NCBI GenBank assembly: GCA_028717805.1
Contig: JAQUNC010000013.1
Span: 1 to 49,025 of the forward strand
DNA length: 49,025 bases
Direction of reading: 5' to 3'
DNA from: Atribacterota bacterium
Lineage (GTDB): Bacteria; Atribacterota; Phoenicimicrobiia; Phoenicimicrobiales; Stramentimicrobiaceae
Shown: one piece after another, positions 8,403 to 44,560 of the stretch
Numbering within the stretch: the first letter of the stretch is position 1
Layout: each line of letters opens with the position of its first letter
Program-made: the position numbers and the translations under genes
Notes under the pieces: model-generated
Seen by the model: only the letters and a program-made list of their open reading frames with translations
What the model was told of the DNA's origin: nothing
Database searches by the model: none

Positions 8403-10841
8403 TTATTGTCTTAAGTTTGCCTGAAAGAGTGCATTCAATCTTATTGTAACATTTTCCATTATTTTGTCGACTTCAATATCCGTTAAAGTTCTATCATCAG
8501 CCTGAAAAAATATTGAAAAAGCTATGCTTTTGTTACTTGGTTTAATCTTTTCCCCTCTAAAAATATCAAATAATTCTACTCTCTTAATAATATCCTGTCC
8601 TACTTCTAAAACTTCCTTTTTTATCTGGGTAAAATTTACATTCTCAGGAACTTCTATTGCTATATCTCTTTGGGTATAAGGATATTTAGGTAAAGACCGA
8701 AAAGTGACTTCTCTATTAATCAATGGATACAGTTCTGCATAATCCAACTCGAATAATAAAATATTCCCTGGTACATCTAAACATTTGGCAATATCCTGAT
8801 GCAACTCACCAAAAAAGGCTATCCTCTTGTTTCCACTCTTTATTAAGCCATTCTTTTGGGGATGAAAAAAGGGTAGATTCCCGGGTAAATAATCTATATC
8901 CCTTATCATTAATGCATCAAAGAGGGATTCTAAAATTCCTTTCAGGTAAAATATATCCCAGTTTTCTGATTTATCCCATATATTCCCCCTGCCTATTTTA
9001 GCTATTCCCCCAGCTATCATTAATTTTTCAACAGGCAGAGAATCGCCCTCAAGCTTACTTTGAGGAAAATAAATCCTTCCGATTTCAAATAATTTTATTT
9101 TTCCCATACTATGATTTACATTCCATTGAATTGTCTTAAGTAAACCTGGTATCAAAGTGGTTCTCATGATGGTTTGCTCTTGAATTAGTGGATTAGCTAA
9201 TTTGACTGTCTGACGAAAATAGTGAGAAGATGGTAATTTCAGCCAATCAAAACATTTTGGAGTAATCATACTATAGCTAATTATCTGATGCATACCGCAA
9301 CCAACCAGAAAACTCCTTATTTTATCCACAATTTTTTGTCTATTGCTTTTACCTTCCTGTATCACCGTAGATTTAAACAAAGTAGAGGGAATGTTTTCAT
9401 AACCAAATATCCTGGCAATTTCTTCAATAACATCTACATCTCTTTGTACATCACTCCTAAAACTGGGAGGTGTAAGTTCTAAATAATTATCAATCTCATG
9501 ATTGATTTTAAATTCCAACTTAGTTAAAATATCAACAACTTTTTCTGTAATCTCACTATTGTTGTTAGCGATTGTGGTTCCTAAAACCCTACTTATTTTA
9601 GGCAGATAAAGTTTGATTGGCTTTGTCCTGCTCAATTGTTTACTGTATTGGTTTATGACTCCAGAAAGAAGCTTGCCTGAGGTAAGTTGGGTTATAAGAT
9701 AAGCAGCTCTATTCAGAGCAAAAACCTGGCCAAATGGATCTATGCCTTTTTCAAAACGATTAGAAGCATCTGTCCTCAAAGTAAAATAGTGACTGGTTCT
9801 TCTATTATTAACTGCATCAAAATATGCTGATTCCAAAAATACGTCTTTTGTAGTAGTCTTAATTTCAGAATTCTCACCTCCCATAACACCCGCTAAGGCA
9901 ATAGCTCGATCGCAATCAGCAATAACCAGATTATCTTTTGTTAATATCCGTTCAATGCCATCTAAAGTCCTAAATTTTTCCCCGGGATTAGCTCTGCGAA
10001 TGATTATTTTCTGACCATGAATAAAATTAAGGTCAAAGGCATGAAGAGGCTGTCCCGTCTCCATCATAACATAATTAGTCACATCAACTATGTTATTAAT
10101 TGGTCTGATGCCCAGTAAAAATAATTTCCATCTTAACCAGAATGGTGAATGTTTCACCTGCAATTCCCTAATTATTCTGCCAGCATAGCGAGGACAAAGA
10201 TCTTCATCCTCTACTTCCACTGATATACAATCGGTTATCAATTCCTCTGTTTCTACTAACTTTATCTCCGGTAATCGTAAGGTTTTCCCGGAAAAAGCTG
10301 ATATTTCCCGAGCAATCCCAATTATACTCAATAAATCAGGGCGATTGGAGAAAATTTCAAAATCAAAAATTACATCATCTACCATTCCTGTTAAATTTTC
10401 AATCCTTTCTCCTAAAGGTAAGTTCTTATCTAAGATTAATACACCGGGTGATTTGCTCTTCTCCAATCCCAATTCGGAAGCTGAACAAATCATCCCCTGT
10501 GAATATACTCCTTGAATTATTTTCTCTTCAATCTTTCCTAATCCTGGTAAAGCACCACCTTCCAATACTACCGGAACATAATCTCCTACTTTCATATTTC
10601 TTGCACCACAAACAACTTCTAATGTTCTACTTTTAATATCTACTGTACAAACCAATAGATTACTATTGTTATGGACAGGTTTAATATCAGCTATTTTCCC
10701 TACCAATACTCCCTGAACCTCTTTAAATATTGGAGTAGTATGTTCAGCAACAATACCATTCATAGAAAGCCGTTCAGCTAGTTCTTCCGGTGATAAATTA
10801 ATATCTACATACTCTTTTAATAAATTATATGAGACCTGCAT
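8403..10841 (-). CDS. pheT: Phenylalanyl-tRNA synthetase beta subunit
   Basis: Beta subunit of the alpha2-beta2 PheRS, carrying tRNA recognition and editing. Visible in order are an N-terminal tRNA-binding OB domain (about 40-150), the B3/B4 editing region, the B5 domain, a catalytic-like core with an FRSDVQRDVDVIEEIARIFGY segment split across the B5 boundary, and a C-terminal ferredoxin-fold anticodon-binding domain (PKYPYTQRDIAIEV onwards). I use the second ATG (10841): GGGAGG lies nine nt upstream of it but directly abuts the first ATG at 10850. The resulting 812 aa is typical. It lies 29 nt downstream of pheS and is co-transcribed under the pheS T-box. Confidence 0.97.
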   Translation of the reverse strand: MQVSYNLLKEYVDINLSPEELAERLSMNGIVAEHTTPIFKEVQGVLVGKIADIKPVHNNSNLLVCTVDIKSRTLEVVCGARNMKVGDYVPVVLEGGALPGLGKIEEKIIQGVYSQGMICSASELGLEKSKSPGVLILDKNLPLGERIENLTGMVDDVIFDFEIFSNRPDLLSIIGIAREISAFSGKTLRLPEIKLVETEELITDCISVEVEDEDLCPRYAGRIIRELQVKHSPFWLRWKLFLLGIRPINNIVDVTNYVMMETGQPLHAFDLNFIHGQKIIIRRANPGEKFRTLDGIERILTKDNLVIADCDRAIALAGVMGGENSEIKTTTKDVFLESAYFDAVNNRRTSHYFTLRTDASNRFEKGIDPFGQVFALNRAAYLITQLTSGKLLSGVINQYSKQLSRTKPIKLYLPKISRVLGTTIANNNSEITEKVVDILTKLEFKINHEIDNYLELTPPSFRSDVQRDVDVIEEIARIFGYENIPSTLFKSTVIQEGKSNRQKIVDKIRSFLVGCGMHQIISYSMITPKCFDWLKLPSSHYFRQTVKLANPLIQEQTIMRTTLIPGLLKTIQWNVNHSMGKIKLFEIGRIYFPQSKLEGDSLPVEKLMIAGGIAKIGRGNIWDKSENWDIFYLKGILESLFDALMIRDIDYLPGNLPFFHPQKNGLIKSGNKRIAFFGELHQDIAKCLDVPGNILLFELDYAELYPLINREVTFRSLPKYPYTQRDIAIEVPENVNFTQIKKEVLEVGQDIIKRVELFDIFRGEKIKPSNKSIAFSIFFQADDRTLTDIEVDKIMENVTIRLNALFQANLRQ

Positions 10842-10870
10842 GAAACCCATCCTCCCTATAAATTTCCATT

Positions 10871-11900: not shown

Positions 11901-12150
11901 AAAAAAAAGAAGTCTATAATTTTTCCCATTAAAGGGACGAAAATTATAAACTTCTCCGCGTTACCACCCTTTTTGACTTATTACTATTCAAGTCCAAACT
12001 TATTTTATCTGTAACGGAATAACCCGTCCTGACCTATTCTTCAATTTTCAGTCGGCTTTTTAAAAGTGAAATTCGACAAAGCCAGCTATTTTATGTTCTT
12101 AAATAAAATAACACAGGCTTTCTCTACTATCTTTTAATTTTTTTCTTTAT
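11901..12150 (-). promoter_or_regulatory. T-box riboswitch of pheS (specifier UUC, Phe), with terminator
   Basis: On the minus strand there is a stem I with pairing arms around 12131-12137, a specifier loop GAAU-UUC-AC with Phe codon UUC at 12068-12070, a stem III (11975-11979 with 11990-11994), and the T-box sequence AGGGTGGTAACGCGG (11956-11970). An intrinsic terminator (11901-11954) follows: a long hairpin closed around GTCCC/GGGA, then eight T. Uncharged tRNA-Phe should favour the antiterminator. The 5' limit is approximate. The stretch 12151-12228 after rplT shows nothing else I can name. Confidence 0.93.
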
Positions 12151-17071: not shown

Positions 17072-19567
17072 TTAATGAATTACAATATTTACCAGCTTAC
17101 CGTGTATATTTATAATCTTATCAATATTTTTACCTTTAATCCACTTTTTAATTTTTGGCAATTCTAGTACGGTCTTTCTTATCATCTCATCAGAACTGTC
17201 AGTAGGGACTTTAATTTTATCACGTAGCTTACCATTTATTTGTATAATAATTAATATCTGTTCTTCTTTAATTAGTTGGCTATTAAATTGAGGCCAGCTT
17301 TCGAAATAAATACTTCGTTCATTTCCAATTTCATGCCATAATTCTTCACAAAAATGAGGAACTATAGGACCGAGCAATTTAATAGTGATCTCAATTGTTG
17401 CTTTCAAGATTGCTTTTTCTGATTCATTTATTTGGGTTAATTTTACCTTTAGACCATATAGCTCATTAACTAACTCCATGATGGCGCTTATTGCCGTGTT
17501 AAAATGAAATCTTTCTTCAATATCCTCTGTTACTTTTTTTATGGTTTGATGTGTTTTCCTTTCCAATTTTTTAAATTCCTTGCTCACTGTATTTTCAACT
17601 ATCCTTTTAGGCAAGCCTTCTTCCTGAAATAATTTTCGATATTGATGAACTATTCGCCAAATCCGGTTTAAGAAACGAGAAGCTCCTTCAATACCCTTTT
17701 CACTCCAATCCATATCGAGTTCAGGGGGACCGGCAAAGAGAATCATTAGTCTGGTTGAATCAACACCATATTGATTAAAAATATTGCCAGGGGTAACTAC
17801 ATTTCCTTTTGATTTAGACATTGCTGCTCCATCTTTACAGACCATTCCCTGGGTAAAAAGCCTCTTGAAAGGTTCTTTAAATTTTAGATAACCCATATCG
17901 TATAAAGCCTTTACAAAAAATCGGGAATATAAAAGGTGTAAAATAGCATGTTCCACCCCACCTATATATTGATCTACCGGCATCCAGTAATGTAGTTCAT
18001 TTTCATCAAATGGTCTATCATCCAGATGGGGAGAACAAAAGCGAAGGTAATACCAGGAAGAACAGACAAAAGTATCCATAGTATCGGTATCTCTACTGGC
18101 ATCTTGACCACATTGAGGACAGGTAGTATTTAAAAATTGCTTACTGGAAAGTAATGGTGATAATCCAGTTGGTTTAAAATCAACATCATCAGGTAAATAT
18201 ACCGGTAAGTCCTTTTCTGGTACAGGAATCATTCCGCATTTAGGACAATAAACAATTGGTATAGGTGCACCCCAGTAACGCTGCCTGGAAATCAACCAAT
18301 CCCTTAAGCGATAATTAATCTCTCTTTTTCCGAATCCTTTCTCTTCAAGGTATTTTATTATCATTTCTCTCCCTTTATGGCTGGGCAAACCATTAAATCT
18401 TCCTGAATTAATCATTATACCTTCTTGATCAAAGGCTTCCTGGATACTATTATCTAAAAGGTGAGAATTCTCAGGTTGAATAACTACCCTTACTGGCAGA
18501 TTATATTTTCGAGCAAATTCAAAATCTCTCTGATCATGTGCTGGTACTCCCATAACCATTCCGGTACCATATTCCATCAGTACATAATTTGCCAACCAGA
18601 TTGGAACTTTGTCCTGATTTAAAGGATTTATAACATATTGACCGGTAAAACATCCTCTCTTTTCAGTTAGGGTAATATTCTTCTCAGTAATATTTTCCCT
18701 AAAGAATTCCTCTTTAAATTTTCTCACTTTTTCCTCATACTCTGTACCCTTAACCAGCTTATCTACTATAGGATGCTCGGGGGAAAGAACAAAAAAGGTA
18801 ACTCCATAAAGAGTATCCGGTCTGGTAGTAAAGACAGAAAAGGTTTGATTTGTACCCATAATACTAAATTTTACCTGTGCTCCATCGCTTTTACCAATCC
18901 AATTTTTTTGCATCATTAATACTCGCTCAGGCCATTCTTCTAAAAGATTCATATCATCTAAAAGTTGTTGAGCATAATGGGTAATCTTGAAGAACCACTG
19001 CGATAGTTCTTTTTTTGTTACTTCTGCTCCACATCTCTCACATTTTCCATTAACAACCTGTTCGTTTGCCAATACTGTGGCACAGGAAGGACACCAATTA
19101 ACTACCGCTTTCTTCTTATAAGCAAGGCCATTTTTATAAAGTTGTAAAAACATCCACTGAGTCCATTTATAGTATTCAGGGCTGCAAGTAGAAAGCTCGC
19201 GTCTCCAGTCATAGCTTATTCCCATTGATAAAAGGGTATTCTTCATCTTTTTTATATTTTCCTGCGTCCATATAGCTGGATGAATCTGATGTTTGATAGC
19301 AGCATTCTCGGCAGGTAAGCCAAATGAATCCCAACCCATAGGGTGCAATATATTGAAACCTCTATTGCGTTTATAACGCGCTACCACATCTCCGATAACA
19401 TAATTCTTAACATGTCCCATATGTGGCTCACCGGATGGGTAAGGAAACATTTCCAGTACATAATATTTTTTATTACCAGATTCTATATTGCTTTGAAATA
19501 ATCCCTGACTATACCAATATTGTTGCCACTTTTGTTCTATTTTCCTAAAATCATATTTCTCTTTCAT
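17072..19567 (-). CDS. leuS: Leucyl-tRNA synthetase
   Basis: Class I synthetase charging tRNA-Leu, 831 aa. It has HMGH at residues 49-52, a zinc ribbon (WCPSC followed by CERCG) in the first 190 residues, the CP1 editing domain (about 220-420) and a KMSKS-equivalent at M583-S586, where the leading Lys is Ala as in some other LeuRS. The C-terminal anticodon-binding and tail domains are complete. AAGGAGTG precedes the ATG. Its leader is a T-box riboswitch with specifier CUC (Leu) that contains an embedded tRNA-Ala gene. Confidence 0.98.
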
Positions 19568-19589: not shown

Positions 19590-19935
19590 TAGAAAAATCC
19601 CGCCACCTGTAATAACAATATTACCAGGGACGAGATTTACCCGTGGTACCACCCTATTTTAGTAGATAAGTAATGGTGGAGCTGGCGGGAATCGAACCCG
19701 CGACCTCCTCCACGCCAAGGAGGCACTCTCCCTACTGAGCTACAGCCCCATCTACCCTTCTTCTTCTTTAACGTGAAAAACGTCCTAAGTTATTGTTTTT
19801 AAAACTTTCACTTGGAAAAATTACAGGTGAGTTTCTAGGAATCTAGTATCAGTTTCCACCAACCACTGACTCTCTTTAACTCAATAATTCCAATTATTTG
19901 CCTGTAAAAGTTTCTTCTTTATTATCTATTAGAAA
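19590..19935 (-). promoter_or_regulatory. T-box riboswitch of leuS (specifier CUC, Leu), interrupted by a tRNA gene in stem III
   Basis: Read on the minus strand, stem I (19802-19913) is closed by AAACTTT..ACAGG pairing with CCTGT..AAAGTTT. It carries AGAGAG and GGTTGGTG motifs and a specifier loop GAAA-CUC-ACC with Leu codon CUC at 19829-19831. Stem III is GTAGAT (19750-19755) pairing with ATCTAC (19662-19667). The T-box sequence AGGGTGGTACCACGG is at 19641-19655, and a terminator hairpin plus T tract (about 19591-19639) precedes the ribosome binding site. A whole tRNA-Ala gene occupies the loop of stem III. Removing its 76 nt leaves 97 nt between specifier and T-box sequence, identical to the pheS leader. 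Confidence 0.93.
19674..19749 (-). tRNA. tRNA-Ala (GGC), embedded in the leuS T-box leader
   Basis: Intact minus-strand cloverleaf with acceptor GGGGCTG/CAGCTCC containing the G3-U70 alanine identity pair. It has anticodon stem CCTCC/GGAGG with loop TTGGCGT (anticodon GGC), T-stem GCGGG/CCCGC, discriminator A and encoded CCA. Its first base directly follows the 5' arm of T-box stem III. Six nt (TTACTT) separate its CCA from the 3' arm. No separate promoter is visible next to it, so it is probably made from the leuS leader promoter and released by tRNA processing. Confidence 0.97.
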
Positions 19936-19944
19936 AGCTTATTA

Positions 19945-19973
19945 ATTATAATAAATTGTAAAATAAAAGTCAA
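19945..19973 (-). promoter_or_regulatory. Promoter of the leuS leader and tRNA-Ala
   Basis: On the minus strand TTGACT (19968-19973), a 17-nt spacer and a perfect TATAAT (19945-19950). The start point would lie about 25 nt upstream of T-box stem I. It is the only good promoter between the 27-codon gene and leuS. Confidence 0.85.
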
Positions 19974-20113: not shown

Positions 20114-20165
20114 AATAAGTGCAGGTTACGGTCACCATTTAGATAGTGAAAATCCTGCACTTATT
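20114..20165 (-). terminator. Strong hairpin, probable terminator downstream of the 27-codon gene
   Basis: A perfect 12-nt inverted repeat (20114-20125 with 20154-20165; arms AATAAGTGCAGG and CCTGCACTTATT) encloses a smaller TCAC/GTGA hairpin. It lies about 50 nt after the stop of the small membrane peptide gene. The T tract is weak, so it may act as a 3' stabiliser as well as a terminator. The remaining bases up to the leuS promoter (19974-20113) show nothing I can name. Confidence 0.65.
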
Positions 20166-44440: not shown

Positions 44441-44560
44441 ATAATGAAGGCAGAAAGCAGGCAGTCCGGCCGTCCCAAAAGGGGAAACTCATTGAGTTGG
44501 GATCCGTAACTTTGTGTCCCATTCTTGCGAATGGTAAACCTTTATCGGCTTAGAGCTTTA
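44441..44560 (-). promoter_or_regulatory. GEMM-I (cyclic di-GMP-I type) riboswitch
   Basis: On the minus strand a perfect CCATTC-GCAA-GAATGG hairpin with a GNRA tetraloop is followed by GGACACAAAG (the conserved CAAAG linker). A second stem (CCCAACTC with GAGT..GGG) and the 3' module ACGGCCGGACTGCC come next. This order and these sequences match the GEMM-I class. AAAGC and GCTTT can close the outer stem. It faces the ADC-like/SDR/membrane operon. Whether the ligand is cyclic di-GMP or cGAMP cannot be decided from my reading. Neither the 44561-44799 stretch nor 44091-44440 holds a supported gene. Confidence 0.85.

Follow-up and report, generated by a model that had tools for sequence, protein, structure and literature searches.

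A leuS T-box leader with the tRNA-Ala(GGC) gene at the tip of its stem III, a probable dual-output leader in Atribacterota and other bacteria

Architecture of the leuS leader

The window, that is, the whole stretch of 49,025 nucleotides of Atribacterota DNA that was analysed, carries on its minus strand (19973-19567) a promoter and a complete leuS T-box leader followed by leuS, with a full tRNA-Ala(GGC) gene lying between the two arms of stem III. We read this arrangement as a leuS T-box whose stem III ends in the cell's tRNA-Ala(GGC) gene and which, judged from its sequence, would act as a dual-output leader (probability about 0.8). The leader and its gene comprise the following features.

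19973..19945, minus strand: promoter TTGACT-17-TATAAT, 11/12 match to consensus, common to the T-box leader, tRNA-Ala and leuS
19918..19623, minus strand: leuS T-box leader, RF00230 (cmscan, 110.3 bits, complete model)
19831..19829, minus strand: Leu specifier codon CUC, sequence AGAAACUCACC, which the model alignment places in its specifier loop
19756..19750, minus strand: stem III 5' arm GGTAGAT, pairs with ATCTACT
19749..19674, minus strand: tRNA-Ala(GGC), at the tip of stem III (ARAGORN; RF00005, 67.2 bits)
19667..19661, minus strand: stem III 3' arm ATCTACT, pairs with GGTAGAT
19640..19655, minus strand: T-box sequence AGGGTGGTACCACGGG, 5' part of the antiterminator (sequence and Rfam model match)
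about 19635..19593, minus strand: terminator hairpin and T run (fold and sequence)
19567..17072, minus strand: leuS, leucyl-tRNA synthetase ORF (TIGR00396, 1094 bits)

The leader scores 110.3 bits where the RF00230 gathering cut-off is 93 bits, and the stem III hairpin of that match contains a single long insertion, which is mostly the tRNA. The specifier CUC fits the downstream gene, and the discriminator has the RRRxG-stem III-AA form (AGAAG-GGTAGAT ... ATCTACT-AA). The T-box sequence GGGTGGTACC, which starts at 19654 on the minus strand, and the competing terminator hairpin are both present; the hairpin (19635..19593) was absent from a simple terminator scan of the window, probably since its stem is interrupted. 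Cloverleaf, GGC anticodon, G3-U70 pair and encoded CCA are all found in the tRNA. The initial annotation had described a T-box leader with stem III, specifier and terminator before leuS, and a complete tRNA-Ala(GGC) with G3-U70 and CCA between the stem III arms; the Rfam and TIGR00396 matches bear out the former, and ARAGORN and RF00005 the latter.

Folding of the 180 nt from just before stem III to the terminator gave the cloverleaf atop stem III together with the terminator hairpin (z = -3.8). When the tRNA is subtracted, the specifier and the T-box sequence are about 102 nt apart in the window, with a median of 104 over 79 nested leaders; the corresponding spacings in four tRNA-free leuS T-box leaders are 85, 86, 101 and 159. 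Scanning for the nest pattern gave a single hit in the window and hits in 0/100 shuffles.

Several other elements were noted in the window and its genome. An inverted repeat, AGTGCAGG...CCTGCACTT, lies at 20117-20162 (0 expected in shuffles). It is shared by many relatives of the order, where it sits in the intergenic DNA ahead of the leuS leader, and could represent a terminator or some repeated element. A second, ordinary T-box without a tRNA (11930-12143; 67.8 bits, below the cut-off) is located upstream of the phenylalanyl-tRNA synthetase genes (8403-10850), and the minus strand has a c-di-GMP-I riboswitch at 44457-44550 (49.3 bits). The window's genome (G000) has 11 other T-box matches, all of them without a nearby tRNA. 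At one of its loci (G000:C56:2004-2399; L007, L012) a second, partial antiterminator match comes 40 nt after a T-box match, which gives the look of a T-box that is partly tandem. The genome also has a selenocysteine tRNA gene (G000:C33:1100-1500; L085).

Transcription and copy number of the tRNA gene

Across 66 non-redundant cases, a promoter-like site (at least 10/12) was present upstream of the leader in 47, compared with 6% in shuffles. Such a site within 120 nt of the tRNA was found in only 4/66 leaders (1.4% in shuffles), one of which, G013, has lost stem I so that the same promoter is merely closer. The minus strand of the window has no promoter-like site in the interval from the leader promoter to the tRNA, and the interval from the tRNA to the T-box sequence has no terminator. 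A separate promoter and terminator for the tRNA, which the initial annotation had held to count against the arrangement, were thus looked for in the window and not found. With no general promoter enrichment near the tRNA either, we rejected an independently transcribed tRNA gene. In some Ktedonobacteria leaders (L089, L104, L148) a possible promoter, TTGTCG-17-TATAAT or CATAAT, lies between the sensor and the tRNA, just before stem III, and this counts against the dual-output reading.

The nested gene is the sole Ala(GGC) gene found in the window's genome, as it is in Syntrophomonas wolfei methylbutyratica. The Ala(GGC) anticodon pattern gave one match each in 11 Atribacterota genomes, except in G032, where a second match is not tRNA-like. 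As the nested gene is the only one of its kind and no other promoter was identified, tRNA-Ala would be made from the leader transcript, as had been proposed at the outset; the single copy implies that the mature tRNA derives from the leader. No tRNA-Ala(UGC) was seen in the censuses of G000 and S. wolfei methylbutyratica, probably because its gene belongs to rRNA operons that were not assembled. Since this tRNA might in principle decode the same codons, the single copy of Ala(GGC) does not prove essentiality. G3-U70 and the ACCA end are retained in 99/99 nested tRNA genes.

Pairing of stem III around the tRNA

We compared the stem III arms of 71 non-redundant nested leaders. The arms differ among lineages, and their pairing around the tRNA is kept. 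Helices anchored at the conserved flanks gave 11.2 for native arms versus 5.7 for between-species swaps, and 0/10,000 permutations reached the native mean. With motif-only anchors (55 leaders), 236 paired cells were observed versus 196 expected, a value reached in 0/5,000 permutations; counting from the base of stem III, pair three in this set is TA 16 times, CG 10, GC 6 and AT 2. Covariation of stem III around the tRNA had been put forward earlier as a check; in these leaders the native arms pair clearly better than swapped ones. An unanchored helix search gave a modest excess (15.4 versus 12.4), and the anchored tests were used instead; without anchoring, both RRRxG and AA flanks were present in 27/46 strong-helix leaders.

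Stem III reaches close to both ends of the tRNA, with median gaps of 4 and 5 nt. Its arms are very short in Caldisericota (L126) and Coprothermobacterota (L106 and L123), where the tRNA is approximately all of stem III. Whole leaders folded less convincingly, with a mean acceptor-stem pairing of 0.59 in the leader versus 0.94 for the tRNA alone, and near zero in L104; this thermodynamic result counts against the dual-output reading.

Distribution in Atribacterota

When 60 relatives were searched at the DNA level, the leader with its tRNA turned up in the same genus, in other genera of the family and in a second family of the order. The strict nest pattern is present in 17/50 genomes of the phylum, every one in the window's order. 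Six relatives also exceed the RF00230 gathering score and some fall below it. Absence from all relatives, which the initial annotation would have taken against the arrangement, is therefore not what is observed.

In other orders of the phylum, leuS is preceded by a promoter, tRNA-Ala(GGC) and a terminator that retains a CTCGTCC-like arm, without sensor or antiterminator. Partial loss is also seen within the order: G013 is without stem I, G011 retains only the 3' side of stem I, and G016 has lost the antiterminator and kept the tRNA and terminator, all three being draft genomes in which single deletions could be assembly faults. To judge from these losses, in which parts of the switch have gone yet the tRNA is kept, the switch is dispensable in places.

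Distribution beyond the phylum and origin

We scanned GTDB r220, with one genome per species, for the T-arm of any tRNA with CCA and, 10-40 nt further on, a T-box sequence. At least 120 stretches matched, 80 of them as loci among the matches listed. ARAGORN recognised a tRNA at 75 of these 80 loci, and 71 were Ala(GGC). Loci with Leu, Ser, Gln and Gln tRNAs (L102, L129, L138, L143) were set aside as they look like chance matches and are without leuS; the scan was open to all tRNAs. The nested tRNA was always Ala(GGC), with leuS downstream wherever this could be checked (in L092, L142 and L151 the DNA examined stops before the leuS position). In most loci leuS directly follows the leader. An acyl-CoA ligase gene lies between the two in Desulfotomaculales-type loci, and three Armatimonadota-type loci have an intervening gene that, where identified, is a branched-chain transaminase, which fits leucine control. 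The specifier is CTC in 94/99 nested leaders; 98/99 have an AGAGA-type stem I motif and 83/99 an F-box-like motif.

Bacillota with the nest include Syntrophomonas, Thermosyntropha, Desulfofundulus, Symbiobacterium and others, and Chloroflexota include Dictyobacter, Tengunoibacter and Ktedonobacter. The nest is also present in MAGs labelled Caldisericota, Coprothermobacterota, Armatimonadota, Thermomicrobiota and Actinomycetota, phylum names being those deposited. Among sampled genomes it was found in at least 22/301 from the phylum of Tengunoibacter (reversed-pattern control 0) and at least 79/399 from that of Syntrophomonas (control 1), both counts being lower bounds. Inspection of 29 leuS genomes without a pattern match revealed two that are nested after all (L269, L278) and three with a leuS T-box without tRNA (L276, L279, L281); some have an upstream tRNA but no recognised T-box, and most have neither. 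The shuffles, the recurrence across genomes and the reversed-pattern controls together rule out chance juxtaposition.

Two variants deserve separate mention. The nested leuS leaders of L100, L115 and similar Chloroflexota are complete except that their T-box sequence reads UGGA in place of UGGU, so that pairing with A73 of tRNA-Leu would be lost. The leuS T-box leader of L266 has a stem III loop of about 35 nt and no tRNA, and is conceivably the remnant of a lost nest.

On a LeuS tree (FastTree), the nested state requires 11 to 17 changes and is clustered beyond chance, in a tree on which gain and loss are not separable and long branches are unreliable. Because tRNA, gene and position are identical throughout, a single old insertion is favoured, with repeated loss or transfer of the leader thereafter.

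A proposed dual-output leader

Sequence and comparison show the architecture, its conservation, the pairing of the arms, the single gene copy and the place of the promoter; processing and its timing, switching by tRNA-Leu and a tRNA-Ala supply that does not depend on leucine are inferred. In the model that we propose, transcription starts at one promoter, and tRNA-Leu would be read by stem I, stem II and the specifier CUC. Stem III would form next, with the tRNA-Ala cloverleaf as its tip, followed by either the antiterminator or the terminator. Since the terminator comes only after the tRNA, tRNA-Ala would be carried by terminated and read-through transcripts alike; its output would thus track promoter activity independently of leucine, and uncharged tRNA-Leu would set only the read-through into leuS. 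RNase P and 3' nucleases would excise the tRNA, most likely after the antitermination choice, as excision by RNase P would sever the sensor from the switch. Conserved contacts of stem III sit at the stem base (RRRxG, AA) and its distal part is variable, with no known contact (PMC7583486), which would explain why the distal loop tolerates an insert.

A different reading is that the T-box has decayed into a promoter region for the tRNA, leuS being expressed by leaky read-through. This appears true of the other Atribacterota orders and of G016, and apparently of G013, with its missing stem I. It is very improbable here, as the window and most relatives keep the stem I motifs, specifier, T-box sequence and terminator, and the 110-bit match in the window is full-length. 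Of the mechanisms suggested at the outset, separation of the sensor from the antiterminator by RNase P before the choice and stacking of the acceptor stem on stem III are conjectural, and competition in cis of the ACCA end for the T-box bulge looks weakest, because the stem III helix separates the CCA from the bulge in most lineages. tRNA-Leu normally carries A73; as tRNA-Ala normally does so too, a match of ACCA to the bulge is expected without any role in cis.

Two further readings accept the dual-output leader and disagree only over benefit and timing. The nest may be a passive passenger, landed once in a permissive loop and kept without advantage because precise excision seldom happens and the genome has no second copy of the gene. 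The variable distal part of stem III (PMC7583486), the patchy occurrence of the nest on the LeuS tree and the existence of leaders with a decayed switch and a retained tRNA all speak for this account, to which we would give slightly less than an even chance. Against it, the nest has been retained over several phyla with stem III pairing maintained round the insert. Alternatively, maturation and switching may be coupled. An RNase P cut in the nascent leader would split the sensor from the antiterminator, making read-through depend on which is fastest, RNase P, RNA polymerase or tRNA-Leu binding, and pairing at the tRNA ends, by stem III and by U-1 and G-2 with A73 and C74, would delay the cut until the choice is made. 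We hold this to be rather unlikely. Stem III does reach near both tRNA ends, and RNase P is reported to be inhibited when leader N(-1)N(-2) pairs with RCCA (PMC9433436); the extended pairing is, however, absent from the short-armed lineages. A purine(-2)-U(-1), whose GU case is able to pair with A73 and C74, precedes 55/71 nested tRNAs versus 31/94 other tRNAs and 8/23 non-nested Ala(GGC), but these control tRNAs are a small set from few genomes, the sequences are related, and U(-1) is common before tRNAs anyway. The reach of stem III and the excess of purine(-2)-U(-1) are thus suggestive only, hinting that timing may matter. Were tRNA maturation part of the switch, a rather unlikely idea, stem III and the paired tRNA ends would gate RNase P, and excision and leuS read-through would be ordered or mutually dependent.

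Relation to known systems and significance

All T-box family sequence features that we tested were found in this leader. It resembles the transcriptional T-boxes of the leuS class (RF00230) in its stem I, Leu specifier, F-box-like motif, RRRxG-stem III-AA, T-box sequence, terminator and aminoacyl-tRNA synthetase gene, and differs from them in that the tip of stem III is a complete, functional-looking tRNA gene for another amino acid. In E. coli, tRNAs ahead of tufB are co-transcribed with the protein gene; the present tRNA would likewise be excised from the 5' part of an mRNA, whereas the tRNAs before tufB lie outside any regulatory RNA fold. The B. subtilis thrS T-box leader is cleaved by mRNA-decay enzymes, and cutting of a leader can change the fate of its mRNA; in the present case the two cuts would come from tRNA maturation itself. 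For T-boxes, insertions of unknown function have been noted in stem III and helix A2 (PMC7583486). The present insert occupies the same part of the riboswitch and is identified as a tRNA gene, with one identity in all cases found. A tRNA inside stem III is mentioned neither in T-box surveys nor in a review (PMC2494555, PMC7778990, PMC7583486). The open-licence literature searched, which leaves aside subscription papers, yielded no description of a tRNA nested in a T-box or of this composite architecture.

At least one of the unexplained T-box insertions is now identified, and annotation that sets length limits on T-boxes would miss such leaders. The nested leaders also provide natural sequence sets for testing the interplay of stem III, RNase P and antitermination. 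The overlap of regulator and product is unusual, in that the leader must fold as a sensor and yet be cut to give a tRNA. That several phyla have it suggests that the arrangement is old and has been retained; if maturation and switching are coupled, the supply of tRNA-Ala would be tied to the leucine response in an ancient RNA device of several phyla.
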